From: Oscillospiraceae bacterium
GTDB taxonomy: Bacteria > Bacillota > Clostridia > Oscillospirales > Ruminococcaceae
Direction: 5' to 3'
Length of the DNA stretch: 64,000 nucleotides
Assembly: GCA_017427265.1 (NCBI GenBank)
Contig: JAFRTG010000021.1
Location: 372,001 to 436,000, forward strand
The notes beneath the pieces were generated by a model. It did no database searches. It was not told the DNA's origin and saw only the letters and a list, made by a program, of their open reading frames with translations. This document shows, in pieces, positions 73 through 49,655 of the stretch (the stretch's first letter is position 1; each line of letters opens with the position of its first letter). The position numbers and the translations under genes are program-made.

Positions 73-331
73 GCGCAGAAAGCTGCGCGGCGACTTCGTC
101 GGCGCTGCGCTTTCTGCGCGCTGCGAATCTCTCTGCGATTCGCCTGGGGACGCCCTCTCTTACAGGGCTTCCCCCTTCCAAAAACGATCCGCAGGATCGT
201 TTTTGAAATTCCCCCTTGCGGTGCGCCTGACGATGGGAGAGTTTCGCACTCTGCGGAGTGCGACTTAGGGCTCTGCCCTAAGAACCTGCCAGCTTTTTGT
301 AAAAAGCTGGACCAAAAACTTTAGTTTGGGG
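73..331 (-). repeat. Module B multi-hairpin repeat, copy B1
   Basis: Full-length module B on the minus strand. Read in its own direction it starts CCCCAAACTAAAGTTTTTGG and carries successive hairpins: AGCTTTTTGTAAAAAGCT, CTTAGGGCAGAGCCCTAAG, CGCACTCCGCAGAGTGCG, AAACGATCCTGCGGATCGTTT, an AGGGC-type stem, GCGAATC/GATTCGC, and a terminal 11-bp stem GCGCAGAAAGC/GCTTTCTGCGC. Other copies keep each stem but with different bases. The open frame inside is not plausible as protein. Confidence 0.85.
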
Positions 332-363
332 CGGGTATGCGTCGGTATTTGCTTTGCGGATAG

Positions 364-727
364 CTTTAGCATTGGGTGAGGTTACGTCACAGAAGCCGCG
401 TCAGCGGCGTGATGGTGAAAAGATGGGGGGCTCCGCTGCCGCCCTCCGGAGGGAATTGGCTGTCGGCACTGCCGACCGGCGGGCTTTAGCCATTGGGAGA
501 AGTTACGTCACAGAAGCCGCGCCAGCGGCGTGATGGTGAAATGATGGGGGAGCTCCGCTGCCGCCCTCCGGAGGGAATTGGCTGTCGGCACTGCCGACTG
601 GCGGGCTTTAGCCATTGGGAGAAGTTACGTCACAGAAGCCGCGCCAGCGGCGTGAATTTGTTTCATTGGGAGAGCTCCGCTGCCGTCCTCCGGAGGGAAT
701 TGGCTGTCGGCACTGCCGACCGACAGC
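364..727 (-). repeat. Three tandem copies of module A repeat (A1-A3)
   Basis: Units begin at 364, 484 and 606 (120-122 bp period). Each reads CTTTAGC(C)ATTGGG, then a conserved GTTACGTCACAGAAGCC, a GCCGC/GCGGC hairpin, the palindrome CCTCCGGAGG, and a GTCGGCA/TGCCGAC hairpin. The last copy stops at the stop codon (728-730) of the leftward coiled-coil gene. Unit size and lack of spacers rule out a CRISPR array. The unit is the same as single copies scattered through the window. Confidence 0.85.
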
Positions 728-1180
728 TTACCACATGGTGTCGCCGTCGTTGTAGCGGGATTCCTCGGCGTCATAGAAGAACCGCTGCACCTCTTCTTTC
801 AGCTTGACAGCACGGTTCCGCGTCTCCGCCGAGAGCACATTCATGTCCTCATAGAGATTGTCCATATCGCGGGAGAGAACGTCGGTTGTTTTGTTGAGCG
901 CAGCGATTGCGTCCTCCTGGTGATCCGCAGATTCATCGAGTGCGTCAGCGCGTTCGGTCAGTGCATCCAGATGCCGCTGAATGCTGCGGAGCGTGTTCTG
1001 AATTGTTTTCTGCTCCTCGCGGAGCTCCTGCTGCGCGTTTTCCAGTGCCGTAACGGTTTCCGCGAGCGTTTTGACGGATTCCGCCGTCCGCAGCAGCTGC
1101 GCGGAGAGCTTTCCGTTTTGCTTTTCGAGTTCCTCGTTCTGGGTTTCCAGCTCTGAAAGCCGGAGTGTCAGGTCGTCCAT
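728..1180 (-). CDS. Coiled-coil protein, last gene of an SOS-box sigma-like operon
   Basis: A 150-aa protein that is almost wholly heptad-like: Leu/Glu/Gln-rich from residue 3 to about 110, then a charged tail. It has no signal peptide or membrane segment, so it is probably cytoplasmic. The ATG at 1180 is chosen because GAGGAGG lies 9 nt upstream; a longer frame would place that ribosome site inside the gene. It lies about 120 bp downstream of the sigma-like gene on the same strand and is probably co-transcribed. A role as partner or anti-factor of that regulator is inference only. The family is not recognised. Confidence 0.75.
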   Translation of the reverse strand: MDDLTLRLSELETQNEELEKQNGKLSAQLLRTAESVKTLAETVTALENAQQELREEQKTIQNTLRSIQRHLDALTERADALDESADHQEDAIAALNKTTDVLSRDMDNLYEDMNVLSAETRNRAVKLKEEVQRFFYDAEESRYNDGDTMW

Positions 1181-1302
1181 GCAGATGCGCCTCCTCATTG
1201 CCGAAATGCCGCGGCTGTCATGCAGCTGCGTATCTGCTACTATTATAAAATATTCGGCAGATGATGTCAAGCGTTTTGCAAAAATTGCGGTCACATCAGG
1301 TG

Positions 1303-1641
1303 TCATTCTGCAATATAATACTGCAGAACATGCCGCAGACGTTCCCGTGCCCGTTTGAGCGTCCGGGAGACGGTCGCAATGTTGACACCGTTCTGCTCCG
1401 CGATTTCACGCATGGTCAGCGTTTCCTCATAATAAAGGTGCAGATATTTGCGCTGACATGGCGTCAGCTCATGTTCCCAGGCCTGCCGGAGCGCTCTGTG
1501 AAGCCTTGTGCGGCCGTTATCCTGTTCCGGAAAGAGCGATTCCTCTGTGCGGCGTGCAAGTCTGCGGACAATTTCCGGGTCGTAGGCAAAAACTTCTTCT
1601 TTCAGGCGCCGCCGCCGGCGCAGTGCACGGGCGATCAGCAC
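1303..1641 (-). CDS. Sigma-70 region-4-like HTH protein
   Basis: About 112 aa. The C-terminal half is a clear sigma region 4 / LuxR-like helix-turn-helix: TPCQRKYLHLYYEETLTMRE, then a turn and a recognition helix containing ATVSRTLKRAR. No region 2 is present, so alone it cannot be a normal sigma factor; it may act as a DNA-binding half of a split sigma or as a phage-type late activator. The start is uncertain: GTG 1641 is nearest, but AAGGAGG lies only 1 nt upstream of it; CTG 1638 or ATC 1635 fit the spacing better, and a GTG at 1674 has no ribosome site. Its start overlaps the stop of the upstream gene, suggesting translational coupling. Confidence 0.8.
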   Translation of the reverse strand: MLIARALRRRRRLKEEVFAYDPEIVRRLARRTEESLFPEQDNGRTRLHRALRQAWEHELTPCQRKYLHLYYEETLTMREIAEQNGVNIATVSRTLKRARERLRHVLQYYIAE

Positions 1642-1910
1642 ACCTCCTTTTCGGCGTAGACGCGGATGCTGCACATCGCATACAGCAGATCGGTATGTTC
1701 TTCACACAGCAGTGCAATGCGTTTTTCGAGTACGGTCTGTGTACGGGCGGATTCTGCTGTTCCGAGTCTGCTGCGCCGCAGCTGCCGGAGCTCGGCGCGC
1801 AGCAGCACAATCCGGCTGTGAACGGACTTTGCTGCCTGTTCATACTGTGCCAGCATCCTTGTATAGGGCATGTTCCTTGCCCACGGCTGGTCTTTTTTGA
1901 CAGTGTACAT
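1635..1910 (-). CDS. Small basic helical protein, first gene of the SOS-box operon
   Basis: A 91-aa protein with a long predicted helix rich in Arg, Leu and Gln (residues 19-80) and Cys near the C-terminus. ATG 1910 has AAGGAGG 8 nt upstream. The stop TGA (1637-1635) overlaps the start zone of the region-4 protein, so the two are probably made together. Similar small helical protein plus HTH pairs occur in phage and integrative-element late-gene regulators; that comparison is from memory and only approximate. A role as the missing core-binding half of a split sigma factor is a hypothesis. No domain is firmly recognised. Confidence 0.75.
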   Translation of the reverse strand: MYTVKKDQPWARNMPYTRMLAQYEQAAKSVHSRIVLLRAELRQLRRSRLGTAESARTQTVLEKRIALLCEEHTDLLYAMCSIRVYAEKEVC

Positions 1911-1939
1911 GATGCATTCCTCCTTGCTGAAACAGAAAA

Positions 1940-1953
1940 AGAACATTCGTTCT
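1940..1953. promoter_or_regulatory. LexA (SOS) box
   Basis: GAACATTCGTTC (1941-1952; GAACGAATGTTC on the minus strand) matches the Gram-positive SOS box core GAAC-RNRY-GTTY. It lies just downstream of the -10 box of the leftward operon, where a bound repressor would block initiation. Confidence 0.7.
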
Positions 1954-1959
1954 ACTCTT

Positions 1960-1988
1960 ATTGTACCAGATTTCCGCTTCTTTGTCAA
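1960..1988 (-). promoter_or_regulatory. Sigma-A promoter of the SOS-box operon
   Basis: On the minus strand TTGACA (1988-1983) and TACAAT (1965-1960) are 17 bp apart. The expected start point falls about 1953, inside the LexA-like box, and the leader to ATG 1910 is about 45 nt. Confidence 0.85.
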
Positions 1989-2415
1989 GCAGTAAACATG
2001 CGCATGTGTAGAAATATGCACATGGAAGTTGTTTTGTGCATCCGCGACCGCTTTTCGGAGTTGTATGCGTACAAGTATGCAATATTTGCGGAATTGGTAT
2101 CTCAAAAAGCGCAAAAAATGCGCAGGGCATGGCGGCGGCATGACCGTACAAGCTGGCGAAAAGCAAGGAAAATGTGCGTTTTTTTGAGTGGATAGGCAAT
2201 AAAAGCGTAGAATAGGAAAAATGCATTGTGCATGTCATACAAATGTAAAGAATATCGCAATTATTGAGGATTATTTGCGGAAATCAGCAAAAAATGCGCT
2301 AGACTTGCGAAAGAAATTGTGCTAAACTAAAATTACAACCGGACGTATAAGGGGGACTTTGCGGCCGGAAAAAGAAAGGCTCTGTAAAGAAGATTATTTT
2401 TAGGGAGGGCTAAAA
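1989..2415 (+). promoter_or_regulatory. Long AT-rich upstream region of the xylanase gene
   Basis: About 430 bp with no credible gene. It is more AT-rich than its surroundings. It holds a CATGTG/CACATG inverted repeat (near 2004-2024), repeated TATGCG/TATGCA-type words, and a weak promoter pair TAGACT-17-TAAACT (about 2300-2329). The ribosome site AGGGAGGG precedes ATG 2416 by 6 nt. The size suggests regulated expression, but no operator can be named. Confidence 0.35.
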
Positions 2416-5151: not shown

Positions 5152-5159
5152 TTTTCGGC

Positions 5160-5188
5160 TTGACAAAACCGGATAAATCCTGTATGAT
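5160..5188 (+). promoter_or_regulatory. Promoter of the AIM24 gene
   Basis: TTGACA (5160-5165), 17 bp, TATGAT (5183-5188). It starts 9 bp after the xylanase stop codon. Confidence 0.85.
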
Positions 5189-5216
5189 ATATACAGGAGC
5201 AAATCCAAATCAGAAA

Positions 5217-5252
5217 AAACGGGGTATAGCTTCTGCTGTACCCCGTTTTAAT
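5217..5252 (+). terminator. Hairpin terminator inside the AIM24 leader
   Basis: ACGGGGTA...TACCCCGT stem followed by TTTTA. It is the only good terminator for the xylanase, yet it lies downstream of the next promoter, so AIM24 transcripts must also pass it. Confidence 0.7.
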
Positions 5253-5279
5253 ATTTTACATGAAAAAAGGAGAATGAAT

Positions 5280-5954
5280 ATGCAGTATCAGATTATTGGA
5301 CAGACCGTTCCGGCCGTCGAAATGACGCTGATGTCCGGCGAAACCGTCTTTACACAGTCCGGCGGCATGATCTGGCAGACACCGGGCATCCAGATGAATT
5401 CCAATGCCCGCGGCGGCATCGCAAAAAGCATCGGCAGAATGTTTGCAGGTGAATCGCTGTTCATGACAAATTACACCGCAACGATGGATCAGGTTCGCAT
5501 CGCATTCGGCGCGACGGTTCCGGGATGTATCATTCCGATCAATGTCGGCCAGACGCCGATCATCTGCCAGAAGGGCGCATTCCTCTGTGCAGAGCAGAGC
5601 GTGCAGCTGGATGTGACCTTCACAAAGAAGTTCACGGCAGGTCTGCTCGGCGGCGAAGGCTTCATTCTGGAAAAGCTCTCCGGCGCAGGCATGGCGTTCC
5701 TTGAGGTTGACGGCGATATGGTCGCATATGACCTCGCGCAAGGGCAGGAAATGCTGATTGATACGGGCAATGTCGTTGCCTTTGAAGCAACCGTGAGCTA
5801 TGAAATTACGACGGTCAAGGGCCTGAAGAACGTGCTGTTCGGCGGCGAAGGCCTGTTCCTGACCAAGCTGAGCGGTCCGGGCAGAATCATTCTGCAAACG
5901 CAGAACTTCAACGATTTTGCCGGCAAGATCATAGCAAGAGTTCCGAAGGGATAA
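5280..5954 (+). CDS. AIM24 family protein (TIGR00266-like)
   Basis: 224 aa with the typical double glycine-rich beta-barrel pattern: FTKKFTAGLLGGEGFILEKL at about 121-140, then GLKNVLFGGEGLFLTKLSGPG at the end. AIM24 proteins are widespread in bacteria and of uncertain function (the name comes from a mitochondrial protein). No signal peptide is seen. ATG 5280 has AAAAGGAG 7 nt upstream. It is a single-gene unit with its own promoter, an attenuator-like hairpin in the leader, and a terminator behind it. Confidence 0.9.
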   Translation: MQYQIIGQTVPAVEMTLMSGETVFTQSGGMIWQTPGIQMNSNARGGIAKSIGRMFAGESLFMTNYTATMDQVRIAFGATVPGCIIPINVGQTPIICQKGAFLCAEQSVQLDVTFTKKFTAGLLGGEGFILEKLSGAGMAFLEVDGDMVAYDLAQGQEMLIDTGNVVAFEATVSYEITTVKGLKNVLFGGEGLFLTKLSGPGRIILQTQNFNDFAGKIIARVPKG

Positions 5955-5965
5955 TGAACCGCAGG

Positions 5966-5994: not shown

Positions 5995-6039
5995 CTGTTT
6001 ATAAATCCCGGATCAGCCTCTCCCCGGTGCGCTTTTGCC

Positions 6040-15602: not shown

Positions 15603-16679
15603 TTGTCCGAACTGATTGAAAAACTGAACGCCGCGCATCAGCTGACGGATGACGAGCTTCTGCGCTTTTTTGCGGAGGAGCAGCCGGAGGATGAACTGTT
15701 TGCGGCAGCCGATGCAGAGCGGCGGAAATATTACGGTGATGCCGTATATCTGCGCGGCCTGATTGAGTTTACAAACTACTGCAAAAATAATTGCTATTAC
15801 TGCGGCATCCGGGCGGGCAATCCCCATGCGGAGCGTTACCGTCTGACGGATGCGCAGATTCTCGCGTGCTGCGTGGAGGGATACGGGCTTGGCTACCGGA
15901 CGTTCGTGCTGCAGGGCGGAGAGGATCCGTATTATACGGATGACAAAATCTGTGCGCTGATTTCAGCGATTGCGGCACAGCATCCCGACTGCCGCATCAC
16001 GCTGTCGATCGGGGAGAAATCCCGCGAGAGCTATCAGCGGTACTATGAAGCAGGTGCACGGCGGTATCTGCTGCGGCATGAGACGGCGGATCCTGCGCAT
16101 TACCGGATGCTGCATCCGGAGAGCATGTCGCTTGAGAACCGGAAGCGCTGTCTGTATGATCTCAAGGAGATCGGCTATCAGACGGGAAGCGGGTTTATGA
16201 TCGGTGCGCCGTATCAGACCCATGCGCATCTTGTGCAGGACATCCGGTTTTTGCAGGCGCTGGAGCCGGATATGATCGGGGTCGGGCCGTACATCACGCA
16301 TTCGGAGACGCCTTTTTCGGAGATGCCGTCAGGAGATGTGCGTTTCGGTCTGAAGGTGATTGCGCTGCTGCGGCTGCTGTTTCCGTCGGCGTTGATTCCG
16401 GCGACGACGGCATTCGGGTCGCTGCATCCGCGCGGGCGGGAGCTTGCGCTGCAGGCGGGCGCGAATGTGGTGATGCCGAATCTTTCGCCGGTGCGTGTGC
16501 GGAAGCTCTATGATCTGTATGAGAACAAGATTTGTGTCGGAGAAGAGGCGACGCAGTGCAAGGGCTGTCTGGAGCAGCGCGTGAAAGCAGCCGGCTACCG
16601 CATTGTCACATCCCCCGGCGACCGGGCAGTGCCCGGTTCCAATTCCCTCCGGGAGCCGGCAGCGGAGCTCACCCAATAA
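15603..16679 (+). CDS. hydE: [FeFe]-hydrogenase maturase HydE with repeat-derived tail
   Basis: 358 aa radical SAM enzyme that helps build the 2Fe subcluster of the H-cluster. The SAM-cluster motif C60-NKN-C64-YY-C67 (CKNNCYYC) and the HydE/BioB-like motifs LQGGEDPYYTDD and TGSGFMIGAPYQT are present. It starts with TTG; AAAGGAG lies 7 nt upstream. The last about 18 residues (RAVPGSNSLREPAAELTQ) are coded by a copy of the dispersed module A repeat, which also supplies the TAA stop. It sits 14 kb from the hydrogenase operon, behind the glycosyltransferase. hydF and hydG are not in the window. Confidence 0.93.
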   Translation: MSELIEKLNAAHQLTDDELLRFFAEEQPEDELFAAADAERRKYYGDAVYLRGLIEFTNYCKNNCYYCGIRAGNPHAERYRLTDAQILACCVEGYGLGYRTFVLQGGEDPYYTDDKICALISAIAAQHPDCRITLSIGEKSRESYQRYYEAGARRYLLRHETADPAHYRMLHPESMSLENRKRCLYDLKEIGYQTGSGFMIGAPYQTHAHLVQDIRFLQALEPDMIGVGPYITHSETPFSEMPSGDVRFGLKVIALLRLLFPSALIPATTAFGSLHPRGRELALQAGANVVMPNLSPVRVRKLYDLYENKICVGEEATQCKGCLEQRVKAAGYRIVTSPGDRAVPGSNSLREPAAELTQ

Positions 16680-17255
16680 GCCAAGTACACGCCGCTGACG
16701 CGGCTTCTGAGACGTAACTTCTCCCCATATTAAAGTTCTGCAGGGGCTGAATGAGAACAAAACTTTATATTGAAGTGTTTAAGTGTTCGTTATTCATTTT
16801 GTATCCGGCGAACTTTAGATCAATGGGAGCGGGCACTGCCCGCCGCCGCTGACGCGGCTTCTGAGACGTAACTTCTCCCCATGCTAAAGTTCACCCGGAG
16901 CGAAATATCAAAATGAACGTATGGATACCCCAAAACTAAAGTTTCGGTCAAGCCTTTACAAAGGCTTGCGGAGTCCAGAGGCAGAGCCTCTGGTCGCTCT
17001 CCGCAGAGAGCGAAACTCCCCATCGTCAGGCGCACCGCAAGGGGGAATTTCAAAAATGATCCTGCGGATCGTTTTTGAAAGGGGGAAGCCCTGTAAGAGA
17101 GGGCGTCCCCAGGCGAATCTCAGGGAGATTCGCAGCGCGCACCACGGCAGCATAGAAGCTGACGACAGTCAGCGCCGAGCTGCGTGCGCATCGCGGCGGA
17201 CACTGCCCGCTGCCGCTGTTTGTGGCTTCTGAAACGTAACTTCTCCCAATGCGAA
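16617..17255 (+). repeat. Repeat cluster: A, A fragment, linker, B2, A fragment
   Basis: Module A (16617-16735) overlaps the 3' end of hydE. A second partial A follows (16830-16892), then a linker of about 35 bp, full module B (B2, 16928-17189), and another A fragment (17201-17255). B2 stems include AAGCCTTTACAAAGGCTT, CCAGAGGCAGAGCCTCTGG, CGCTCTCCGCAGAGAGCG and GCTGAC/GTCAGC. The segment 16845-16972 recurs almost unchanged, inverted, at 18771-18890. There is no gene in this stretch. Confidence 0.85.
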
Positions 17256-18720: not shown

Positions 18721-18770
18721 TAGAAAAGCCACAGCAGGGAATGGCTGATCGGTACTTCACTTGCAGATCC

Positions 18771-18975
18771 GCAAGCCTTTGTAAAGGCTTGACCGAAACT
18801 TTAATTTTGGGGTGTCTATGCGTTCATTTTGATATTTCGCTCCGGGTGAACTTTAGCATGGGGAGAAGTTACGTCTCAGAAGCCGCGTCAGCGGCGTGTA
18901 CTTGGCTGATTGGGTGAGCTCCGCTGCCGCCCTCCGAAGGGGATTGGCTGCGGGCACTGCCCGCCCGCCCGCCCG
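18771..18975 (-). repeat. Repeat cluster: module A, linker and head of B (B7)
   Basis: Minus-strand copy: module A (18975-18848), the same linker as at 16.9 kb, then only the first stem of module B (GCAAGCCTTTGTAAAGGCTT, 18771-18812). It covers the last 87 nt of the P-type ATPase gene. With the 16.8-kb copy it forms a long inverted repeat around two hypothetical genes. Confidence 0.85.
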
Positions 18976-21539
18976 CCGACACGCAGCGCGTTCAGAACGG
19001 CCAGCAGCGTGACGCCGACATCGCCGAACACAGCCCACCACATGCCGACCAGTCCGCAGGCACCGAGGGCGAGCAGCAGCAGCTTGACGCCGAGTGCGAA
19101 TACGATATTCTGCCGCACGATGCGCTTTGTCCGCCGTGCAATAGCGATTGCATCCGCGAGACGTTCGGGCTCATCCGTCATGAGCACAACATCTGCGGCC
19201 TCGATCGCGGCATCTGCGCCGAGCGCACCCATTGCAATGCCGACATCCGCGCGCGCGAGCACCGGCGCATCGTTGATGCCGTCGCCGATAAACGCGAGCT
19301 TTTCACCGGCCGGGATTTCCTCCAGCAGCGCTTCGAGGCAGGAGACCTTCTCGTCCGGGAGCAGCTGTGCATGGCAGGCGTCGAGTCTGAGCTTTTCCGC
19401 GACTGCTTCTGCAACAGCGCGGTCGTCGCCGGTCAGCATGACGGTCTTGCGGATGCCGGAGCGGCGGAGCTTCTGGATTGTGTCCGCAGCATTTTCTTTC
19501 AGTTCATCGGCAATCAGAATGCAGCCCGCAAAGATGCCGTCCGCTGCAACATAGACCTTTGTTCCGGCGGTATTGTTTTCGGTATAGGGAATATTGTTTT
19601 CCGCCATGTATTTGCCGCTTCCGGCCAGAACGGTTTTGCCTTCCATGACCGCAAGGATGCCGCGGCCGGAGATTTCCTCGCAGCTGCTGACATCCAGTGC
19701 AGCCGCGTCGCCGGAATAGGCAGCGAGAATTGATTTTGCAATCGGGTGATTGGAATTCCGTTCGCAGCCCGCCGCCAGACGGAGCAGTGTTTCTTCGGAA
19801 TAACCTGCTTCGGGGTGCAGCTCCGAAACGCGAAAGACGCCCTTTGTCAGCGTGCCGGTCTTGTCAAAAACGGCTTGTGTGACATGGCTCAGCGCTTCGA
19901 GGTCGTTGCTGCCTTTAATCAGAATCCCGCAGCCGGATGCTGCACCGATGCCGCTGAAAAATGTCAGCGGAATGGAAAGCACCAGTGCGCAGGGGCAGGA
20001 GACGATCAGAAAGACGAAGGCTCTGTGAATCCAGTCGGCCCATGCACCGCCGAAGAGCAGCGGCGGAATCACTGCCAGCAGCACCGCCAGAATCACGACG
20101 ACAGGCGTATAATAGCGTGCAAACGTCGTGATGAAGTTCTCGGTCGGAGCTTTGCGTGCGGCGGCGTTTTCGACCATGTCAATGATCTTGCTTGCCGTCG
20201 ATTCGCTGAACGGCTTTGTGACCTCGACGGTCAGCGTACCGCTCTGATTGATGCAGCCGGAGCGGACATCGCTGCCGGGTTTTGCGCGGCGCGGAACGGA
20301 CTCGCCGGTCAGCGCGACCGTATCGAGCATGGATTCACCCTCGATGACGGTGCCGTCCAGCGGGACACGCTCACCTGCCTTGATGATGATGTGTGTACCG
20401 ACGCTGACCTGCTCTGCAGGGACAGTCAGCGTATTGCCGTTTTGCAGGACATTTGCGGTATCCGGCCGGATATCGAGCAGCGAGGCGATCGAACGCCGGG
20501 AGCGGCGGACGGCCATCGACTGGAAGAATTCGCCGATCTGATAAAACAGCATGACGGCGGCGGCTTCGGGATATTCGCCGAGGATGAATGCGCCGACGGT
20601 CGAAATACTCATGAGAAAATGCTCGTCGAAGATCTGACCTCTTGTGATATTGCGGAGCGCACGCAGAACGACGTCCCAGCCGAGAATGATGTACGCAGTC
20701 AGCATGATTGCAAGGACAACAGGTGCCGCCGCGTGCAGGAGCAGCTTTGCAGCGAGTCCCGCAAGGAAAACGGCACCGCCCGCAATCAGCCGGTACACCA
20801 TGATGCGTTCAGCGCGGCCTTCATCCGGGCGCGCATCGGCTTTGCCGGGCGTCAGCAGGCTGACGGAGACATCCGGCTCATGCTTGTGCACGATTTCCGT
20901 GATCTGCCGGAGCAGCGCGTCGCGGTCGCAGTCCGGCGCAGAGACGGTCAGCGTCTGCTGCACGAGATTGACAGCCGCCGCATTGATGCCCTCGGCCTCT
21001 GCGGCATCGTGCTCGATCATGGCAGCGCAGTTCGGGCAGTCGAGTCCTTCCAGCCGGAACTGCACAGCGTCTGCCGGATTGATGACGGCGGCGGTACTGT
21101 GCGCGTGCTCGTGGTGATGTTCGTGCTCATGCCCGCAGCATTCGCCGTGCTCGTGGTGATGCTCGTGTTCATGTTCACAGCATTCGCCGTGCTCGTGGTG
21201 ATGCTCGTGTTCATGTTCACAGCATTCGCCGTGCTCGTGGTGATGCTCGTGCTCATGTTCGCAGCATTCCCCATGTTCATGATGATGCTCGTGTTCATGT
21301 GCATGTGTCCGGGGGACAGCATGCGCGATGACCTCGACATCCGGCTCATGGCGGTGCACAATGCGCGTAATCGCGCTGAGGAGCTCATCGGCAGCGGCCT
21401 GCTCGGTATGCACGGTCAGGGTCTGCTGCATGAGATTGACAATAGCCTTGCTGACGGATTCCATTGCAGCGACATCCCGCTCGATTTTCGCGGAGCAGTT
21501 CGGGCAGTCGAGCCCTTTGAGCGTGTAGATCAGTTCCAT
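18888..21539 (-). CDS. Zn/Cd-type P1B-ATPase with His/Cys-rich repeats
   Basis: 883 aa heavy-metal efflux ATPase of the inner membrane. Two HMA domains (C12-PN-C15 and C168-PN-C171) flank a metal-binding tract (80-146) of about four 14-residue repeats EHEHEHHHEHGECC. Then follow eight TM segments, TGES (411-414), the transport motif CPC (515-517), the phosphorylated D559 in DKTGTLT, and GDGINDAP. CPC with a His/Cys tract suggests Zn, Cd or Pb export rather than Cu. ATG 21539 has GGAGG 5 nt upstream. The last about 29 residues (GGQCPQPIPFGGRQ...) come from the dispersed repeat, in a frame different from that used by hydE. The repressor gene lies just upstream. Confidence 0.94.
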   Translation of the reverse strand: MELIYTLKGLDCPNCSAKIERDVAAMESVSKAIVNLMQQTLTVHTEQAAADELLSAITRIVHRHEPDVEVIAHAVPRTHAHEHEHHHEHGECCEHEHEHHHEHGECCEHEHEHHHEHGECCEHEHEHHHEHGECCGHEHEHHHEHAHSTAAVINPADAVQFRLEGLDCPNCAAMIEHDAAEAEGINAAAVNLVQQTLTVSAPDCDRDALLRQITEIVHKHEPDVSVSLLTPGKADARPDEGRAERIMVYRLIAGGAVFLAGLAAKLLLHAAAPVVLAIMLTAYIILGWDVVLRALRNITRGQIFDEHFLMSISTVGAFILGEYPEAAAVMLFYQIGEFFQSMAVRRSRRSIASLLDIRPDTANVLQNGNTLTVPAEQVSVGTHIIIKAGERVPLDGTVIEGESMLDTVALTGESVPRRAKPGSDVRSGCINQSGTLTVEVTKPFSESTASKIIDMVENAAARKAPTENFITTFARYYTPVVVILAVLLAVIPPLLFGGAWADWIHRAFVFLIVSCPCALVLSIPLTFFSGIGAASGCGILIKGSNDLEALSHVTQAVFDKTGTLTKGVFRVSELHPEAGYSEETLLRLAAGCERNSNHPIAKSILAAYSGDAAALDVSSCEEISGRGILAVMEGKTVLAGSGKYMAENNIPYTENNTAGTKVYVAADGIFAGCILIADELKENAADTIQKLRRSGIRKTVMLTGDDRAVAEAVAEKLRLDACHAQLLPDEKVSCLEALLEEIPAGEKLAFIGDGINDAPVLARADVGIAMGALGADAAIEAADVVLMTDEPERLADAIAIARRTKRIVRQNIVFALGVKLLLLALGACGLVGMWWAVFGDVGVTLLAVLNALRVGGRAGGQCPQPIPFGGRQRSSPNQPSTRR
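21100..21300 (-). repeat. 42-bp coding tandem repeat (His/Cys-rich)
   Basis: About 4.5 near-identical 42-bp units inside the ATPase gene, each coding EHEHEHHHEHGECC. Near identity at DNA level points to recent expansion, and copy number is likely to vary between strains. Confidence 0.9.
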
Positions 21540-22076: not shown

Positions 22077-22190
22077 TCGGGCGGGCAGTGCCCGCTTCCA
22101 TTTCCCTTCGGAGGGCAGCGGCGGAGCTCCCCTAATGAGGCAAGCACACGCCGCTGACGCGGCTTTTTAGTGCACACTTCTCTCAATGTT
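22077..22190 (+). repeat. Module A repeat
   Basis: A complete module A (GGGCAGTGCCC stem, CCCTTCGGAGGG, GCCGC/GCGGC hairpin). It directly abuts the -35 box of the repressor promoter. Confidence 0.85.
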
Positions 22191-22452
22191 AAAACGTGCC
22201 ACAAGGTTTTACAAACGCTTGCGGCGTGCAATAGAGAGGAAAGAGAAAGGAAGGAGAGAGCACGAGAGGGGAGACCGGAGCGCAGCGACGACTTCCCGTT
22301 TCCGTTGGTTGCCCCTATCGTATTCGCGCCCCGCGCCCGGCCAAAAGAAACGCCGGACAAAAGGATAAAGCACAAACATCACGATGCCTTTGCCCGGCGT
22401 TCAACAGTTTTTATTGTGCGCAGACTGTGGGAAAGAACCGGGAACAAATCCC
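22191..22452. other. Non-coding stretch with polypurine tract
   Basis: About 260 bp with no credible gene. It holds an almost pure purine run at about 22231-22280 (AGAGAGGAAAGAGAAAGGAA and on). The GCCGG/CCGGC-type pairing near 22340-22400 may end the leftward gene at 22453, but it has no clear T-run. Confidence 0.4.
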
Positions 22453-25074: not shown

Positions 25075-25243
25075 GGTCGGGGCGAGCCGGCAGTGCCGAC
25101 GGCCATTTTCCTTCGGAGGACGTTAGCGGAGCTCCCCCAGTAAGTGAAATTCACGCCGCTGTTCGCGGCTTCTGTAACGTAACTTCTCCCCATTATATCG
25201 GCTCCCCTGAAAGGGGAGCTGTCTGCGCAGCAGACTGAGGGGC
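25075..25243 (+). repeat. Module A plus module C repeat, left copy
   Basis: Module A (25075-25196) is followed by module C, GGCTCCCCTGAAAGGGGAGC then GTCTGC/GCAGAC, ending GAGGGG (25200-25243). It is almost identical (about 5 differences) to 25604-25769. Module C resembles a short palindromic repeat common in gut Firmicutes genomes (recalled, not searched). Confidence 0.85.
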
Positions 25244-25324
25244 CATCCAAAGTGTACAGCCGACCGCACCTTCTTTTCACACATTTTTCCCAATAGTTAA
25301 AGCCCGCCACAAAGCGCGACATTG

Positions 25325-25586
25325 CCCAAAATTAAAGTTTCGGTCAAGCCTTTACAAAGGCTTGCAGAGTCCAGAGGCAGAGCCTCTGGTCGCACTCCGC
25401 AGAGTGCGAAACTCTCTTATCGTCAGGCGCACCGCAAGGGGGAATTTCAAAAACGATCCAGCGGATCGTTTTTGGAAGGGGGGAGCCCTGTAAGAGAGGG
25501 CGCCCCCAAGCGAATCTCAGAGAGATTCGCAGCGCGCACCAAGGCAGCATAGAAGCTGACGGAAGTCAGCGCCGAGCTGCGTGCGC
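25325..25586 (+). repeat. Module B multi-hairpin repeat, copy B3
   Basis: Full-length module B. Stem 3 reads CGCACTCCGCAGAGTGCG instead of the CGCTCTC/GAGAGCG form of B2, a paired change. It sits between the two near-identical A-C copies. Confidence 0.88.
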
Positions 25587-25603
25587 TTTTTCCCCGTATC
25601 CCG

Positions 25604-25769
25604 CGGGCGAGCCGGCAGTGCCGACGGCCATTTTCCTTCGGAGGACGTTAGCGGAGCTCCGCCAGTAAGTGAAATTCACGCCGCTGTTCGCGGCTTCTGA
25701 GACGTAACTTCTCCCCATTATATCGGCTCCCCTGAAAGGGGCGCTGTCTGCGCAGCAGACTGAGGGGGC
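25604..25769 (+). repeat. Module A plus module C repeat, right copy
   Basis: Direct repeat of 25081-25243, about 97% identical, separated by about 525 bp that contains B3. This suggests a recent duplication or unequal recombination. The remaining bases to 25827 hold nothing else recognisable. Confidence 0.85.
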
Positions 25770-25827
25770 ATCATGCAGTGCTGCCTTTCAGATATTCTTT
25801 TTTTCGTTAAAAATCGTCACAAAGCCC

Positions 25828-25917: not shown

Positions 25918-27318
25918 ATGTCTGACGATCGTTTTTCAATGCCGGATCTTCCGCCGACGGAACCGGAACAGCAGACGGAAATCCCGTCATACCGCCCCAT
26001 TCAGCCGATTCAGCTGCCGGAACAAAATCCGGCGATGAACCCGCAGCAGCAGAACCCTGCGCAGTATCCGAACACCCCGCAGCAGCAAAGCCCTGCGCAG
26101 TATCCGAACACACCACAGCAGCAGAACCCTGCGCAGTACCCGAACACCCCGCAGCAGCAAAGCCCTGTGCAGTATCCGAACAATCCGCAGCAGCAAAGCC
26201 CTGCGCAGTATCCGAATAACCCGCAGCGTCCGCCGGTGTATCAGCAGATGCAGCAGACGCCCACGCCGGATAACCGGCCGCTGCCGTTCTCGCAGGACAT
26301 CATGCGCCTGCTTTCTCTGCCGCCGATTACCAAGGCAGAAGCGGAATTCTGCCGCCACAGCCACGAAAAGCGCTGGTTCCGCCGCCTGACGGCCATCAAC
26401 ATCCTGCTGATTATCAGCGCGATTGTTCTCATGATTAGCTCATTCGGTGAATATAAGAAAACGATGAAGCGGTTTACCGAGGATGTCACCGCAGAAATGC
26501 TGCAAAGCATCTCCGAGCAGACCGGAACCGCGGATGATGACGAAGAAACGGATGAGGACACCGACGAAGAAGAGTCTGATGATGATGCAGAAGAAGAGGA
26601 AGAGAAGAACACAAAGGATATCTATGCAGAGCTTTACGAGGATCTGCCGCTTGGCTATCAGATGTTTTTCTACGGCATCGCGGCGCTGCTGATCGGCTAT
26701 CTCGGCCTGTACTGGATTCATGCAGATCTCCGCTCCCGCAGCATCCGCATCACCGAGCGCAATTTCCCTGAAATCTATGCGCTGATTCATTCTTATGCAG
26801 AGCGTCTCGGCATGAATGTGCCGGAAGCCTACATTGTCTCTGAGAGCGGTGTGCTCAATGCATTTTCCGCATTCCTGTTCCGCCGGCAGTACATCCAGAT
26901 CAATTCAGAAGTGTTTGAGGTTGCTTACCGTGAGCACCGCGATATGAATGCACTTGCGTTCATCATTGCACATGAAATGGCACATATCTACTACGGTCAC
27001 GCGACGCTTTCCTATAATCTGCGGATCTGGTTCTCGCAGACGCTTCCGATTGTCGGCTCGACGGCATCCCGAACCCGTGAATACAGCTGTGACCGTCTTG
27101 CCCAGCGCATGACCAATTACGACGGCCTCGGCGCCATGTTCATGCTGATGGTTGACCGTCATCTTTACAAGATGGTCGATACGCAGGATTATCTTGAACA
27201 GTCCGTGAAGGATCGCGGCTTTTTCCTTTGGCTGGTGAATCTGTTCTCGACGCATCCTATCATGCAGAAGCGCATCCGGGCACTCGCCATGTGGAGCGGC
27301 AACGGAGATCTGTACTGA
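25918..27318 (+). CDS. M48-family membrane metallopeptidase with PQ-repeat N-terminus
   Basis: 466 aa. A Pro/Gln-rich N-terminus contains about five 12-residue repeats (PQQQ-S/N-PAQYPN-T/N, residues 41-103). Then come membrane segment 1 (158-175), an Asp/Glu-only stretch (204-229), membrane segment 2 (248-267), and an M48 zinc peptidase domain with HEMAH (352-356) and TREYSCDR (third Zn ligand Glu) downstream. It resembles HtpX-type proteases but has an unusual N-terminal extension and a strongly acidic inter-TM loop. ATG 25918 has GAAAGGA upstream. It is monocistronic, ended by the GCCCCGAAGCA terminator. Confidence 0.88.
   Translation: MSDDRFSMPDLPPTEPEQQTEIPSYRPIQPIQLPEQNPAMNPQQQNPAQYPNTPQQQSPAQYPNTPQQQNPAQYPNTPQQQSPVQYPNNPQQQSPAQYPNNPQRPPVYQQMQQTPTPDNRPLPFSQDIMRLLSLPPITKAEAEFCRHSHEKRWFRRLTAINILLIISAIVLMISSFGEYKKTMKRFTEDVTAEMLQSISEQTGTADDDEETDEDTDEEESDDDAEEEEEKNTKDIYAELYEDLPLGYQMFFYGIAALLIGYLGLYWIHADLRSRSIRITERNFPEIYALIHSYAERLGMNVPEAYIVSESGVLNAFSAFLFRRQYIQINSEVFEVAYREHRDMNALAFIIAHEMAHIYYGHATLSYNLRIWFSQTLPIVGSTASRTREYSCDRLAQRMTNYDGLGAMFMLMVDRHLYKMVDTQDYLEQSVKDRGFFLWLVNLFSTHPIMQKRIRALAMWSGNGDLY
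26037..26230 (+). repeat. 36-bp coding tandem repeat (PQ-rich)
   Basis: About five copies of a 36-bp unit in the M48 gene coding PQQQ(S/N)PAQYPN(T/N). Units differ only at a few third positions and at the S/N and T/N codons, so copy number is probably variable. Confidence 0.9.
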
Positions 27319-35337: not shown

Positions 35338-36375
35338 ATGGAACTGCAATCCTGTTTTTCACCGGAAGGGGCGCTGCTCGGCTCCCCGCAGAACACCGCA
35401 GCAATCGGCACGGAGGCCGGGCTGCGCGAAGCAATGATGACCGGACAGCGTCTTGAGGCGCGGGTCCGGGTCTGTGACGGCGGGCACAATCTGCATGTGG
35501 AGCTGCCGTGTATGCGCGGGCTGATTCCGCGGTCGGAGGGCGCGCTTGGCATCAGCGAGGGGACGACGCGGGACATCGCGCTGATTTCCCGCGTCAACAA
35601 GCCGGTGTGCTTTTCGGTGCTGCGGATCGAGCACAGCGAGGACGGCACGCCGTATGCTGTTTTATCGCGGCGTCTGCAGCAGGAACACTGCCGCGACGGA
35701 TACATCAGCCGGCTGCAGCCGGGGGACGTGATACCGGCGCGTGTGACGCATCTTGCACCGTTCGGGTGTTTTGTGGATATCGGCTGCGGGGTGCCGTCGC
35801 TGATTCCGATTGATGCGATATCGGTCTCGCGGATTTCGCATCCGGCAGACCGGTTCCGCGTGGGCGAAGAAATCCGCGTGATGGTCAAGGGCTTTGAGAA
35901 CGGCCGGATTCTGCTGACGCATAAAGAGCTGCTCGGCACATGGGAGGAGAATGCGGCGTGCTTTTCGCCGGGCGAAACGGTCGCGGGCATTGTGCGTTCC
36001 GTGGAGGATTACGGCGTGTTTATTGAGCTGGCGCCGAATCTGGCGGGATTGGCAGATCTGCGGCCGGATGTCCGGGCGGGGCAGCATGCGAGCGTGTACA
36101 TCAAAAGCATAGTGCCGGACAGGATGAAGATCAAGCTGGCGATTGTAGATGTATTTGACGAAGCAGCGGTGCCGCCGCCCGTGCATTATTTCTTCAGCGG
36201 CGACCATATGGACGAGTGGGTATATACGCCGCCGCAGGCCAAGCGCCGCATCGCCACTTACTTTTCCTCCGAACGAACGGGCGGGGAGCCTCCGCGGGCA
36301 TTTTCCTTCGGGCGGGCAGTGCCCGCTCCCATTTCCCTCCGGGCGCCGGCAGCGGAGGACTCCCAATCAACTTAA
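35338..36375 (+). CDS. S1 RNA-binding domain protein with repeat-derived tail
   Basis: 345 aa. At least two S1-like OB folds are visible: about 130-200 (QPGDVIPARVTHLAPFGCFV ... RILLTHKELLGTW) and about 208-270 (PGETVAGIVRSVEDYGVFIE). The N-terminal 120 residues resemble the degenerate S1 domain of ribosomal-protein-S1-like proteins. It probably binds RNA or ribosomes in the cytoplasm. ATG 35338 has TTGGAGG 5 nt upstream. The last about 35 residues run into repeat DNA; the final RAVPAPISLRAPAAEDSQ is homologous to the tail of HydE, which is otherwise unrelated. Confidence 0.85.
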   Translation: MELQSCFSPEGALLGSPQNTAAIGTEAGLREAMMTGQRLEARVRVCDGGHNLHVELPCMRGLIPRSEGALGISEGTTRDIALISRVNKPVCFSVLRIEHSEDGTPYAVLSRRLQQEHCRDGYISRLQPGDVIPARVTHLAPFGCFVDIGCGVPSLIPIDAISVSRISHPADRFRVGEEIRVMVKGFENGRILLTHKELLGTWEENAACFSPGETVAGIVRSVEDYGVFIELAPNLAGLADLRPDVRAGQHASVYIKSIVPDRMKIKLAIVDVFDEAAVPPPVHYFFSGDHMDEWVYTPPQAKRRIATYFSSERTGGEPPRAFSFGRAVPAPISLRAPAAEDSQST

Positions 36376-36610
36376 TACACGCCGCTGGCGCGGCTTCTTA
36401 GGGCGCACCTCTTCCCATGCTAAATCTCGCCATGGGGGATAAAATATCCCCCAAACTAAAGTTTTTGATCGACCTTTTTTCAAAAAGGTCGCGGGTTCTT
36501 AGGGCAGAGCCCTAAGTCGCTCTCCGCAGAGAGCGAAACTCCCCATCGTCAGGCGCACCGCAATCCGCGGCACCCGCAGCGCATAGAAGCTGACGGCAGT
36601 CAGATTCGAG
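36310..36610 (+). repeat. Module A, short linker and deleted module B (B4)
   Basis: Module A (36310-36425) overlaps the 3' end of the S1 gene. A linker of about 25 bp is followed by B4 (36448-36610). In B4 stem 1 is GACCTTTTTTCAAAAAGGTC and stem 2 is CTTAGGGCAGAGCCCTAAG, both different from B2 but paired. The central hairpins (the AAACGATCC stem to the GCGAATC stem) are missing. Confidence 0.83.
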
Positions 36611-36612
36611 TA

Positions 36613-36735
36613 ATGCGGGATGCAGGTTCCAAAGGGCGGCAGCCGTTTGAGCAATGTGGGTTACAGGTTCCAAAGGCCGGCAGCCCTTTGAGCACTGCGG
36701 GCTACAGAATTCAAAGGGTGGCAACGGAGCTCCCC
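36613..36735 (+). repeat. 41-bp tandem repeat, about three units
   Basis: Units start at 36613, 36654 and 36695, each (A/C)TG(C/T)GGG(A/C/T)T then CAGGTTCCAAAGGGCGGCAG. The third unit merges into module A sequence. The same unit, reversed, is found at the window's left end. Confidence 0.85.
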
Positions 36736-36770
36736 CAGTCAGCCAATTTCACGTCCTTTCCTCACCTGAT

Positions 36771-36813
36771 GGCTCCCCTGAAAGGGGAGCTGTCAGCGAA
36801 ACTGACTGAGGGG
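36771..36813 (+). repeat. Module C palindromic repeat
   Basis: GGCTCCCCTGAAAGGGGAGC, then GTCAGC-GAAA-CTGAC and GAGGGG. The second stem differs from the 25.2-kb copy (GTCTGC/GCAGAC) but still pairs. Confidence 0.8.
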
Positions 36814-36839
36814 TTTGCACCCTCAAAACTGAAAGCTCA

Positions 36840-37090
36840 CCGGTCAGTCAGGCAGTGTCTGCTTCCATTTTCCTCCGGATGCCGGCAGCGGAGGACTCCC
36901 AATCAACTTAATACACGCCGCTAAACGCGGCTGCGGGCAGTGCCCGCTTCCAATTCCCTCCGGGCGCCGGCAGCGGAGAACTCTCAATCAACTTAATACA
37001 CGCCGCTGGCGCGGCTTCTTAGGGCGCACCTCTTCCCATGCTAAAGCTCGCCGTCGGCAGTTCCGACAGCCATTTCCCTTCGGCGGCCGC
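36840..37090 (+). repeat. Further module A copies
   Basis: Two consecutive A copies (about 36850-36936 and 36933-37045) and a last fragment starting CCGTCGGCAGTTCCGACAGCC. They are joined head to tail. Nothing else is seen between here and spoVM except a short spacer (37091-37230). Confidence 0.8.
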
Positions 37091-38488: not shown

Positions 38489-38629
38489 CACGGAACAGCC
38501 GCAGTATTTCAGATCCGAAGTCGAAAATGCAGTTTTTTGGCCGGGCTTTTTTCAAAAAGCGCCCGAAGCGGATACTTCTTTTTATAAATCTCCAATCTCC
38601 GATTGGCCGCGCCTGCGACGGAATTTCTA
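38489..38629 (+). terminator. Possible terminator after the S11 homologue
   Basis: CGGGC-TTTTT ... AAAAA-GCGCCCG pairing at about 38547-38575, then a T-rich stretch. It is an imperfect hairpin; nothing else is recognised here. Confidence 0.45.
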
Positions 38630-38659
38630 TTGACAGTGCAGCGGCGTTTGTGCTATAAT
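38630..38659 (+). promoter_or_regulatory. Promoter of the 38.8-kb gene
   Basis: TTGACA (38630-38635), 18 bp, TATAAT (38654-38659). The sequence TTGACAGTGCAGC ... TGCTATAATTGTT is shared with the 18.7-kb promoter. The leader of about 150 nt to the gene is unusually long. Confidence 0.88.
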
Positions 38660-42638: not shown

Positions 42639-42671
42639 TCTTCAGGTTTTGTAAACAAGCGTATTGCAAAG

Positions 42672-44522: not shown

Positions 44523-44543
44523 ATATCGAAAAAGGAGAAAAAC

Positions 44544-45101: not shown

Positions 45102-45509
45102 TCGGATGTGCAGCGTTTCCTGAATATGAAATTGTCAAGATCCTAAGCGCATGTTTGACTGTACCGGTCGTGAAGCCGCCTATCAACGACACGGCCCAGC
45201 GGCCGACTAGTCCGGTGTGCTTCGTGAGCGGCAGGGAGCCGGAATGCGGTCTGACCGTGCCCGGTTCAGAAGGCGTTCCGTATCGCCATCTGCATAGGGG
45301 GCATAAATGCGGAAAAGTTGTACGTCTGCGTACAACTTTCTGAAAAATGTTTCAGTCATGCGCTGCATGACAATACTGATAGAGAATGCTTCTCCCGCTT
45401 TTCACATAGCGGGATGCCGAAGGGGCAGTGCCCCTTTGGCGCAGTTTAGGCGCGCAGCCCGTTTATAATCCGTCCGCACAGCGGACACAGCTAAAGGAGA
45501 AAAAGAAAT
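45102..45509 (+). other. 400-bp gap before der with a perfect hairpin
   Basis: No credible gene. A perfect inverted repeat AAAGTTGTACG-TCTG-CGTACAACTTT (45314-45339) probably terminates the upstream unit, although the T-run is short. A second hairpin, AAGGGGCA/TGCCCCTT (about 45421-45436), lies closer to der. No clear der promoter was found. Confidence 0.55.
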
Positions 45510-46844: not shown

Positions 46845-46856
46845 GGAGAGAAGAAC

Positions 46857-47579: not shown

Positions 47580-47625
47580 GCAGGGATCCGTTGAATCCTG
47601 AAATCTGAAAAACGGGGTGGAGATT

Positions 47626-47817
47626 ATGAAAAAATATGAATTCGTCAACATCAAGATCGGCCGTCTGGTCGGCGCGAAATCCGAGGAACACCGCAAGATC
47701 ATTCAGGAATATGCTGCAAAGGGATATCGCTATGTCGGCTATATCCCCACGGAGCTGACGGATTCCGGAAAGATCAAATTTATGGATCTGGTGTTTGAAA
47801 CCGAAGAAGCTGAATAA
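47626..47817 (+). CDS. DUF4177 family small protein
   Basis: 63 aa with the DUF4177 pattern (KKYEFVNIKIGRLVGAKSEE, later EYAAKGYRYVGYIPTEL). The function is unknown. ATG 47626 has GGTGGAG 3-4 nt upstream. It lies inside the der-gpsA operon. Confidence 0.82.
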   Translation: MKKYEFVNIKIGRLVGAKSEEHRKIIQEYAAKGYRYVGYIPTELTDSGKIKFMDLVFETEEAE

Positions 47818-47839
47818 AATGAACCGAAAGGAAACTGAC

Positions 47840-48016
47840 ATGGCTGCACAGCATGAGAAAGGTTCTGCTGCAAAAACTGCGGCAAAGAGCGGCATCACAT
47901 TCGGCAGTGCGCTGGCTATGGTCATCAGCTATACGACATGGAAATCCGTCGGCTGGGCGATCGTGCACGGGCTGATGAGCTGGCTTTATGTGATCTATTT
48001 TATTCTTCGTTACTGA
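47840..48016 (+). CDS. Small membrane protein
   Basis: 58 aa; a charged N-terminus (1-16), then a hydrophobic stretch (about 22-57) long enough for one or two TM helices with Trp at the interface. AAAGGA lies 7 nt before ATG 47840. It is operonic between the DUF4177 gene and gpsA. Its function is unknown. Confidence 0.75.
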   Translation: MAAQHEKGSAAKTAAKSGITFGSALAMVISYTTWKSVGWAIVHGLMSWLYVIYFILRY

Positions 48017-48073
48017 TGCGCCGCAGCGCGCATCGGGACAGCATTTTATATCTCATTCAGGAGGAAAACTGAC

Positions 48074-49072
48074 ATGGCGAGAATTACCGTTCTCGGCGGC
48101 GGCTTCGGCACCGCGCTGGCCGTTATGCTGTATTCCACACAGCAGCATGATGTGACGCTCTGGAGCGCCATTCCGGAGGAAATTGAGGCGATGCGCCGCG
48201 ACGGCGAGCAGAAGCAGAAGCTCCCCGGCGTTAAGATTCCGAACGGCATTGCGCTGACGACAGATCTTTCTGTCATTGATGACAGCGATCTCATTCTGTT
48301 TGCAATTCCTTCGGCCTATGTGCGCGATACCTGCAAAAAGGTCGCGCCGCATGTCAAAAACGGTACGGTCGTTGTCAATGCGGGCAAGGGCATCGAGGAG
48401 GATACGCTCAAGCTGATGAGCAAGGTCTTTGCGGAGGAGATTCCGCAGGCGCTCTATGTCGTGCTGACCGGCCCTTCCCATGCGGAGGAAGTCGGCAGGG
48501 GCATTCCGACGAGCGTTGTTGCGGCGTCGTCCATCGCGGCGGCGGCCTATCTGGTGCAGGAGTGGTTCAGCTCCCCGACCTTCCGCGTGTACATCAATGA
48601 TGATGTGACCGGCTGCGAGCTCGGCGGTGCACTGAAGAACGTCATTGCACTGGCGGCCGGTGTCTCCGACGGCCTCGGCTTCGGCGATAACACCAAGGCG
48701 GCACTGATGACTCGCGGTCTGCATGAGATCGAGCGGCTCGGCACTGCACTCGGCTCCCGGACGAACACCTTTGCCGGTCTGACCGGCCTCGGCGACCTGA
48801 TCGTGACCTGTACCTCGATGCATTCCAGAAACCGCAGAGCCGGTATTCTGATCGGGCAGGGGACTGACCCTGCAGCGGCGGTCGAGCAGGTCGGTACTGT
48901 CGAAGGCTATTACTGCTGCCATGCTGCCTACGGGCTTGCAAAGCGCTATGAGATTGAAATGCCGATTACTGAGGCGCTCTACCGCGTGCTCTATGAGGGT
49001 GCGGATGTCCGTGAGGCCGTGCAGGCGCTTATGGATCGTCCCAAGAAGCGCGAGTACGAAAAGCTGAACTGA
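48074..49072 (+). CDS. gpsA: NAD(P)H-dependent glycerol-3-phosphate dehydrogenase
   Basis: 332 aa. Rossmann motif GGGFGTALA (8-16), then LTGPSHAEEV and the catalytic-Lys region GGALKNVIALAAGVSDGLG, and the NTFAGLTGLGDLIVT substrate motif. It supplies glycerol-3-P to PlsY, encoded just upstream. AGGAGG is 8 nt before ATG 48074. Confidence 0.97.
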   Translation: MARITVLGGGFGTALAVMLYSTQQHDVTLWSAIPEEIEAMRRDGEQKQKLPGVKIPNGIALTTDLSVIDDSDLILFAIPSAYVRDTCKKVAPHVKNGTVVVNAGKGIEEDTLKLMSKVFAEEIPQALYVVLTGPSHAEEVGRGIPTSVVAASSIAAAAYLVQEWFSSPTFRVYINDDVTGCELGGALKNVIALAAGVSDGLGFGDNTKAALMTRGLHEIERLGTALGSRTNTFAGLTGLGDLIVTCTSMHSRNRRAGILIGQGTDPAAAVEQVGTVEGYYCCHAAYGLAKRYEIEMPITEALYRVLYEGADVREAVQALMDRPKKREYEKLN

Positions 49073-49130
49073 GATAAGGTGTCTCCGGCGGATTAGAATT
49101 GTTTGCATCCTGCGGATGAAAGCACTAACC

Positions 49131-49170
49131 CCTCCGTCTGCTTCGCAGACACCTCCCCTTTCAGGGGAGG
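49131..49170 (-). repeat. Module C palindromic repeat
   Basis: Minus-strand copy: CTCCCCTGAAAGGGGAG, then GTCTGC-GAA-GCAGAC and GAGGGG. Confidence 0.8.
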
Positions 49171-49179
49171 CAGGATGTG

Positions 49180-49655
49180 GGGAGAGGTGCGTCATAAGAA
49201 GCCGCGTCAGCGGCGTGTGTTTGTTTTATTGGGGGAGCTTCGCTGCCGCCCTCCGGAGGGATATGCCCACGGGGGCTCCCCGCCCGCCGGGATGCGCAGA
49301 AAGCTATGCGGCGACTTCGTCGGCGCTGCGCTTTCTGCGCGCTGCGAATCTCTTTGAGATTCGCCTGGGGGCGCCCTCTCTTTCAGGGCTCCCCCCTTTC
49401 AAAAACGATCCGCAGGATCGTTTTTGAAATTCCCCCTTGCGGTGCGCCTGACGATGAGGAGTTTCGCTCACTGCGGTGAGCGACCAGAGGCTCTGCCTCT
49501 GGACTCTGCAAGCCTTTGTAAAGGCTTGACCGAAACTTTAATTTTGGGAGTAGTTACGTCTCAGAAGCCGCGTCAGCGGCGTGTGTTTGTTTTATTGGGG
49601 GAGCTTCGCTGCCACCGTCCGAAGGGATATGCCCGCGGGGGCTCCCCGCCCGACC
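49180..49655 (-). repeat. Composite repeat A-B5-A
   Basis: Full module B (B5, 49294-49549, minus strand) with A copies on both sides (49180-49286 and 49549-49655). B5 stem 3 is CGCTCACCGCAGTGAGCG, a third paired variant; stem 1 is AAGCCTTTACAAAGGCTT. The outer A is fused to B5 with no linker. The element ends 5 bp from the -35 box of the next gene. Confidence 0.88.

Follow-up and report, generated by a model that had tools for sequence, protein, structure and literature searches.

A stretch of 64,000 nucleotides from the genome of an Oscillospiraceae bacterium (GenBank assembly GCA_017427265.1, contig JAFRTG010000021.1, positions 372,001 to 436,000; hereafter the window) raises the question of why a dispersed repeat, B, should change the arms of its hairpins from copy to copy and still keep them paired. 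A preliminary description of the window, in which B often accompanies a second repeat, A, proposed that B could be either an undescribed structured RNA or a non-autonomous mobile element. Of these two, the mobile element proved the better reading. B is probably a family of gene-less miniature elements (miniature inverted-repeat transposable elements, MITEs) moved by transposases of the IS1182 family, although the transposition itself is something that we infer.

The better-kept copies of B have CAGNYTGTCGAWAAA-type inverted repeats as ends and are set between two copies of a usually terminator-like stem-loop, so that the stem-loop is followed directly by CAGNYTGTCGAWAAAC at the start of the element, and TTTTTCGACARNCTG at its far end is followed by the same stem-loop again. 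The duplicated stem-loop is about 20-30 bp long, is mostly terminator-like and differs from site to site; in 15 well-marked copies, 196-379 bp lay between the duplicates. We aligned ten copies from one metagenome-assembled genome (MAG), which mostly started with CAGTCTGTCGAAAAA-like and ended with TTTATCGACAAGCTG-like sequence. The sequence outside them differed each time and was often a terminator-like hairpin, identical on both sides in 4 of the 10, and 326-379 nt separated the duplicates in copies of this MAG. Among 181 copies, a flanking direct duplication with a score of at least 18 was found in 23, compared with 0 of 724 mismatched pairings, and one with a score of at least 14 in 28, compared with 3 of 724. 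According to a scripted rule, the duplication was hardly more than one stem-loop in 13 of the 23 and 15 of the 28; those at loci L105 and L124 are single stem-loops by eye and not by the rule. The statement that nearly all duplications are stem-loops was rejected on this recount. Terminal inverted repeat (TIR)-like motifs upstream of the head, as we call the first three hairpins of B, were preceded by a stem-loop in 18 of 24 cases, compared with 114 of 673 elsewhere and 176 of 905 random positions.

A search of the genus for PF13751 yielded a candidate partner. Locus L342 holds a 1636-bp insertion sequence (IS; L342:1356-2991) whose 499-aa transposase scored 426.1 bits against NF033551 (cut-off 270) and also matched PF13751, PF05598 and PF01609, which places it in the IS1182 family. 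Its ends are CAGACTGTCCATAAAG and CAGCTTGTCGAAAAAG, and an identical 28-bp stem-loop lies on both sides, giving it both TIRs and a palindromic target. Complete IS1182 insertion sequences of about 1.5-1.6 kb with B-like ends and the stem-loop duplication were found once in the genus and five times in a sample of the order, the latter among 22 IS1182 loci examined out of 30 fetched. Within the genus, 8 of 30 genomes have further L342-like copies, many of them cut by contig ends. One of the eight is the 3.82-Mb genome to which the window belongs (the own genome), in which at least two IS1182 copies are truncated at the end of a contig. One-sided IS ends beside a stem-loop were seen in G025, G020, G029 and G022 and on contig C35 of the own genome, and less clearly on its contig C6. 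At a further IS1182 locus (L376, in G049:C44), the duplicated target stem-loops differ by inversion of the loop, GAAGATTC in one and GAATCTTC in the other, as though resolution of the hairpin had proceeded from the opposite strand.

We compared the CAGNYTGTCGA ends of B with those of these IS. Inspection of 29 loci of the own genome gave seven 5' ends and four 3' ends, picked by eye and by pattern, and when each of these eleven was set against eight IS ends, the closest agreed with it at 9-13 of 14 bases; of 20,000 random 16-mers from the window, 197 reached 9, 50 reached 10 and 6 reached 11. B thus shares its ends with an autonomous IS found in its own genome or genus, and has a target duplication of the same kind (a simple stem-loop in 13 of 181 copies). 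It is also short, multicopy and non-coding, the last judged by inspection and not proof. Because complete IS1182 elements have like ends and duplications, we regard B as a non-autonomous IS1182-type element, which bears out the second proposal of the preliminary description. The head is not a piece of the partner IS: the head model gave no match in the 12 loci retrieved through PF13751. Nor did we recognise a gene in the head. Members of the IS1182 family are listed with long, variable target duplications.

Several observations weigh against assigning B to IS1182. Movement was not observed. No duplication with a score of at least 14 was present in 153 of the 181 copies, a recognisable 5' repeat (a 10-base motif with at most one mismatch) lay within 75 nt in just 24 of 181 and, one spurious match with four mismatches aside, in none of the A-linker-B copies of the own genome, and 10 of the 23 duplications with a score of at least 18 are longer or other repeats by the scripted rule, L105 and L124 included. 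The five copies of the window in which B follows A and a linker (L061, L063, L075, L076 and L077) lack TIRs at their ends and showed neither a 5' repeat nor a stem-loop duplication, and the printed Butyricicoccus flanks (L147, L127) are likewise without such ends. On the side of the IS, comparison of the flanks revealed no duplicated stem-loop at 17 of the 22 IS1182 loci, and an L342-like transposase was found in just 8 of the 30 genomes of the genus although heads occur in 27. Across 295 genomes of the order, B and IS1182 were not associated (IS1182 in 25 of 64 genomes with B and 71 of 231 without, p = 0.23).

If B does move in this way, the transposase would act at the base of a terminator extruded as a cruciform, joining the ends of the element there, and repair would then duplicate the whole stem-loop. 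The inner copy would lose its T-tract and the outer copy would keep the native one. Because the outer copy retains the T-tract, the gene would still be terminated, though its transcript would now take in the element. We counted runs of at least four T within 10 nt of the stem-loop in 20 picked cases (15 B and 5 IS): they were present on the element side in 1, on the native downstream side in 11 and on the native upstream side, read on the other strand, in 7. The A-linker-B copies would be later derivatives that have lost their ends and now sit in A arrays. The interior (hairpins 1-3, often 4 and 5) keeps its fold while its stems drift in pairs.

The nearest relatives among known systems are IS1272 and TnSha1, IS1182-family elements of staphylococci. 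As described in parts of PMC5678879 and PMC4923244, these are DDE-family elements with inverted-repeat ends that insert at stem-loops, several of them terminators, with no primary target sequence, all of which resembles the present case. They insert by replacing the stem-loop and without duplication, whereas here the whole stem-loop is duplicated and most copies found are gene-less. The 2017 IS1272 paper (PMC5678879) does include, as hypothetical pathway b, an insertion that duplicates the stem-loop in full, and B would add this mode of insertion, at terminator-like stem-loops, to those described. Bacterial MITEs, as treated in parts of the review PMC10969869, are likewise short, non-coding and multicopy, with TIRs, target duplication and hairpin-rich transcripts; B differs in that its target is a terminator-like stem-loop and its interior a multi-hairpin fold conserved across an order. 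The main text of that review does not mention IS1182. In the open-access literature searched, we found no description of the B element. Like B, the pneumococcal BOX, RUP and SPRITE elements are modular, clustered and nested; to our knowledge they are unrelated to B in sequence, and we know of no terminator duplication for them. All three are named in the parts of PMC10969869 consulted here. The draft genomes of gut Oscillospirales contain this hairpin-rich repeat, in some cases at contig ends, and the IS1182 reading offers an explanation of it that can be tested.

The head of B runs AAAGTTT, hairpin 1, GCRGG, hairpin 2, hairpin 3 with the loop CCGCAG, AAAYTCC, and in many copies it is followed on the 3' side by hairpin 4, hairpin 5 with the loop GYRANAG, and a last hairpin. 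Whichever strand is folded, a single copy does far better than its shuffles (z of -8.4 and -8.3). The stem pairs quoted in the preliminary description, such as CGCACTC/GAGTGCG, CGCTCTC/GAGAGCG and CGCTCAC/GTGAGCG for stem 3, were found in the sequence as written. To follow them further, we built a head covariance model (R1) from 22 copies of the own genome and aligned 100 model-matched heads from 81 fetched loci, namely 80 named genome records and one viral contig (alignment A3). In this alignment 97.8% of the cells were paired, a figure biased upwards because the model was built on own copies having the same stems, and two-sided changes occurred in 21 of 22 pairs; none of 500 shuffles came as high. 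The covariation score was 0.484, compared with 0.131 in shuffles and at most 0.074 with the partner column slid. The compensatory change reported within one genome is real, but it is not confined to one genome. An unbiased check on hairpin 3, for which the fetch pattern left three bases per arm free, found the arms perfectly complementary in 111 of 119 cases, with 22 different sequences, where random arms would match in 1 of 64. The loop motif of hairpin 5 is carried by 74 of 217 copies, and 63 of these 74 pair at 7 or 8 of the 8 flanking positions, compared with 7 of 68 occurrences of the motif elsewhere. The loops and linkers CCGCAG, GYRANAG and AAAGTTT stay constant while the stems vary. 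Some heads carry extra hairpins inside hairpin 2 or 3 (L019, L087 with a longer head, L126, L233, L121:3789), and in Butyricicoccus pullicaecorum (L147:507-849 and 5248-5632) heads occur in facing pairs on either side of a terminator-like palindrome, and further hairpins follow in mirror order.

Paired change of this kind had been taken as strong evidence that pairing is selected. That argument is weaker than stated, because copying one arm of a palindrome onto the other also yields two-sided changes, and among nearest copies one pair apart we counted 67 two-sided changes without intermediates, as against 19 one-sided and 2 other changes. Transversions made up 23 of the 67, a fraction close to that among unpaired sites (138 of 357) and, by our own estimate, above that of two independent hits. 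The covariation may then be a mere by-product, the arms being corrected by template switching or hairpin gene conversion with no selected structure behind them. Besides these counts, the equal folding of both strands and the inverted loop of the L376 duplication speak for this account, and palindrome copying could explain much of the covariation. It sits less well with the motifs that remain constant while stems change and with a modest excess of G-U over A-C mismatches, and the nearest sampled copies are perhaps too distant to reveal intermediates. We consider it a serious account of the interior, if one that falls somewhat short of an even chance. The constant loops suggest selection on structure, and arm-to-arm copying and selection on the fold are both possible; we think that the interior reflects palindrome arm copying combined with selection on loops and linkers, as RNA or single-stranded DNA. 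In either case, compensatory change among the repeats of one genome does not by itself prove a functional RNA.

It could also be that B is a structured RNA of benefit to the host, an element of 3' untranslated regions (3'-UTRs) or a small RNA dispersed for regulation, whose stems covary under selection on the RNA. The strong two-sided variation and the conserved loops are what such an RNA would show, and G-U exceeded A-C among isolated mismatches on the head strand (22:6) and in the model columns (43:10 without the apical pairs of hairpin 1, 46:25 with them; 7:2 in another count). This excess is weak evidence for RNA selection: it disappeared with fixed, bulge-free arms (36:36), and unpaired positions already lean the same way (132:87). 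We examined gene context with a crude gene caller. For 193 heads, 500 nt of sequence was present on each side, and we dropped the 42 of them that lay inside crude open reading frames (ORFs) of at least 100 aa. With genes of at least 200 aa, heads lay in 33 convergent and 10 divergent gaps, so that divergent (promoter) gaps are avoided, as a host RNA would also have it. A crude orientation bias suggestive of 3'-UTRs (59 same, 27 opposite) was gone once tandem gaps were split from convergent ones (42:34), and with increasing gene length the tandem counts went from 40:31 through 29:27 to 22:22, the last at a minimum gene length of 200 aa. The two orientations could not be told apart by terminator-like hairpins on the downstream side of heads. 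Random orientation with a preference for convergent gaps is the pattern of tolerated insertion, and because of the 22:22 split a host 3'-UTR RNA is disfavoured. Some genomes hold dozens of copies while certain other members of the genus or family yielded none, and the transposon ends and duplications likewise do not fit a host RNA. Nor did Rfam recognise B: no family reached its gathering score in the window, and relaxed searches gave nothing relevant in one window copy (E up to 5) or in eight relatives' loci (E up to 0.1), where two matches fell far below their own gathering scores. A host-beneficial RNA thus seems unlikely, and the structured RNA of the preliminary description was not borne out, though loops and stems behave like selected structure. 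Less likely still is an origin of the REP/BIME type, in which a Y1 (RAYT) transposase would move palindromes and A and B would be modules of a mosaic. The mosaic A/B arrays, the many copies and their mostly intergenic position recall REP/BIME and REPINs, which are palindromic mosaics between genes; B elements are larger, their target duplication and DDE-type inverted repeats are ill-suited to HUH transposition, and they lack the orientation bias that lagging-strand targeting would predict.

Within the IS1182 reading, it is conceivable, though on balance doubtful, that the interior is a transposon-borne structured module, of RNA or single-stranded DNA, whose conserved loops serve as a ligand, either of the transposase or of some factor of the host, and that the element is transcribed through the terminator it splits. 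Insertion would part the terminator hairpin from its T-tract and place a second copy of the hairpin beyond the far end of the element. On this view, terminators would act as landing pads at which insertion is nearly harmless and transcription of the element guaranteed.

A repeat search of the window together with the head model recovered B at the places given in the preliminary description, as five copies, a longer sixth and one fragment (Table 1). What had been listed as a head at 53507-53602 is indeed one, but it belongs to a longer element of another sub-type that continues through hairpin 5 and the last hairpin. Apart from this element, the window copies lack TIR-type ends and are chimaeric, a B body being joined to other tails inside A arrays.

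Table 1. Copies of repeats B and A in the window (the six strong heads score 100-115 bits against the head model)
Feature	Position	Strand	Head	Remarks
B copy 1	73-331	-	235-331	Head followed by hairpins 4, 5 and tail; no TIR; A array adjoins at ~362-726; locus L063
Composite A-A-linker-B-A' insertion	16622-17250	+	16928-17022	B at 16928-17189; 3' end of radical SAM gene altered
Partial head, hairpin 1 only	18735-18812	-	36.5 bits	Upstream a linker, then A (18849-18970)
A copy, no B adjoining	22081-22205	+		
B copy 3	25325-25586	+	25324-25418	A on each side (25080-25247, 25605-25772; 97% identical); locus L077
B copy 4, internal deletion	36448-36610	+	36449-36545	A copies 36312-36436 and 36848-37057 either side; locus L061
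Weak head match	38521-38630	+	21.9 bits	
B copy 5	49294-49549	-	49455-49549	A directly on both sides (49168-49289, 49534-49655); locus L076
TIR-type (MITE-like) B copy	53430-53627	-	53506-53602	Hairpin 5; last hairpin ~53430-53448; degenerate 5' inverted repeat ~53611-53627 (9 of 14 bases like an IS end); outer terminator-like hairpin ~53384-53424, only its right arm recurring upstream of the element; locus L064
Repeat A regions	362-726, 16622-17250, 22081-22205, 25080-25772, 36312-37057, 49168-49655			

Repeat A is a second hairpin-rich family, of about 85-125 nt, with 72 matches in the own genome, often in tandem. It lies within 250 nt upstream of 17 of the 38 own heads, in the same orientation in all 17, while 41 of the 72 A matches have no B head within 700 nt. 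The order A-linker-B is real, then, but not general. A often stands on both sides of own B copies and is duplicated over up to 173 bp, and long A duplications were present in four of the five A-linker-B copies of the window. We also compared orthologous loci for presence or absence of the repeats. At 16.6-17.3 kb of the window, five relatives in which both flanking genes aligned have 35-135 nt between the homologous blocks, compared with at least 757 nt in the own genome, and the composite insertion is absent from all five. Judged from these alignments, the block is a lineage-specific insertion that has altered the end of the radical SAM gene. Among 13 orthologous Na/H antiporter loci, that of the own genome carries a head and there was one weak match; none offered a clean empty site.

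The own genome contains 38 heads by the head model, and across the genus heads were found in 27 of 30 genomes, own included, with a maximum of 77 per genome. In the order sample, under stricter filters, 64 of 295 genomes (own included) and 45 of 149 genera had heads. They were also found in 12 genomes labelled as the same class and another order (293 sampled in all); the three of these loci that we opened (L426-L428) keep hairpins 1 and 2 and not the hairpin-3 motif. A search of genome records with a hairpin-3 pattern matched at least 115 stretches, 80 of them listed. Among the matches listed, strong heads were present in Ruminococcus sp., Butyricicoccus pullicaecorum and Angelakisella sp., whereas Pseudoflavonifractor capillosus and a Verrucomicrobiia MAG matched the pattern but scored at most 24 bits or had no model match. 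One stretch with the pattern was found in viral contigs. With one B copy as the query, plasmids gave no match and phage records two partial matches. Within the own genome, contig C18 carries 14 of the 38 heads, 13 of them in C18:341-492 kb, a stretch of ~150 kb that makes up ~4% of the genome. Other tandem repeats occur in the window as well: three 41-nt units lie beside B copy 4 at 36605-36727, and repeats of 42 nt and 36 nt lie within long ORFs at 21104-21313 and 25997-26263, respectively.

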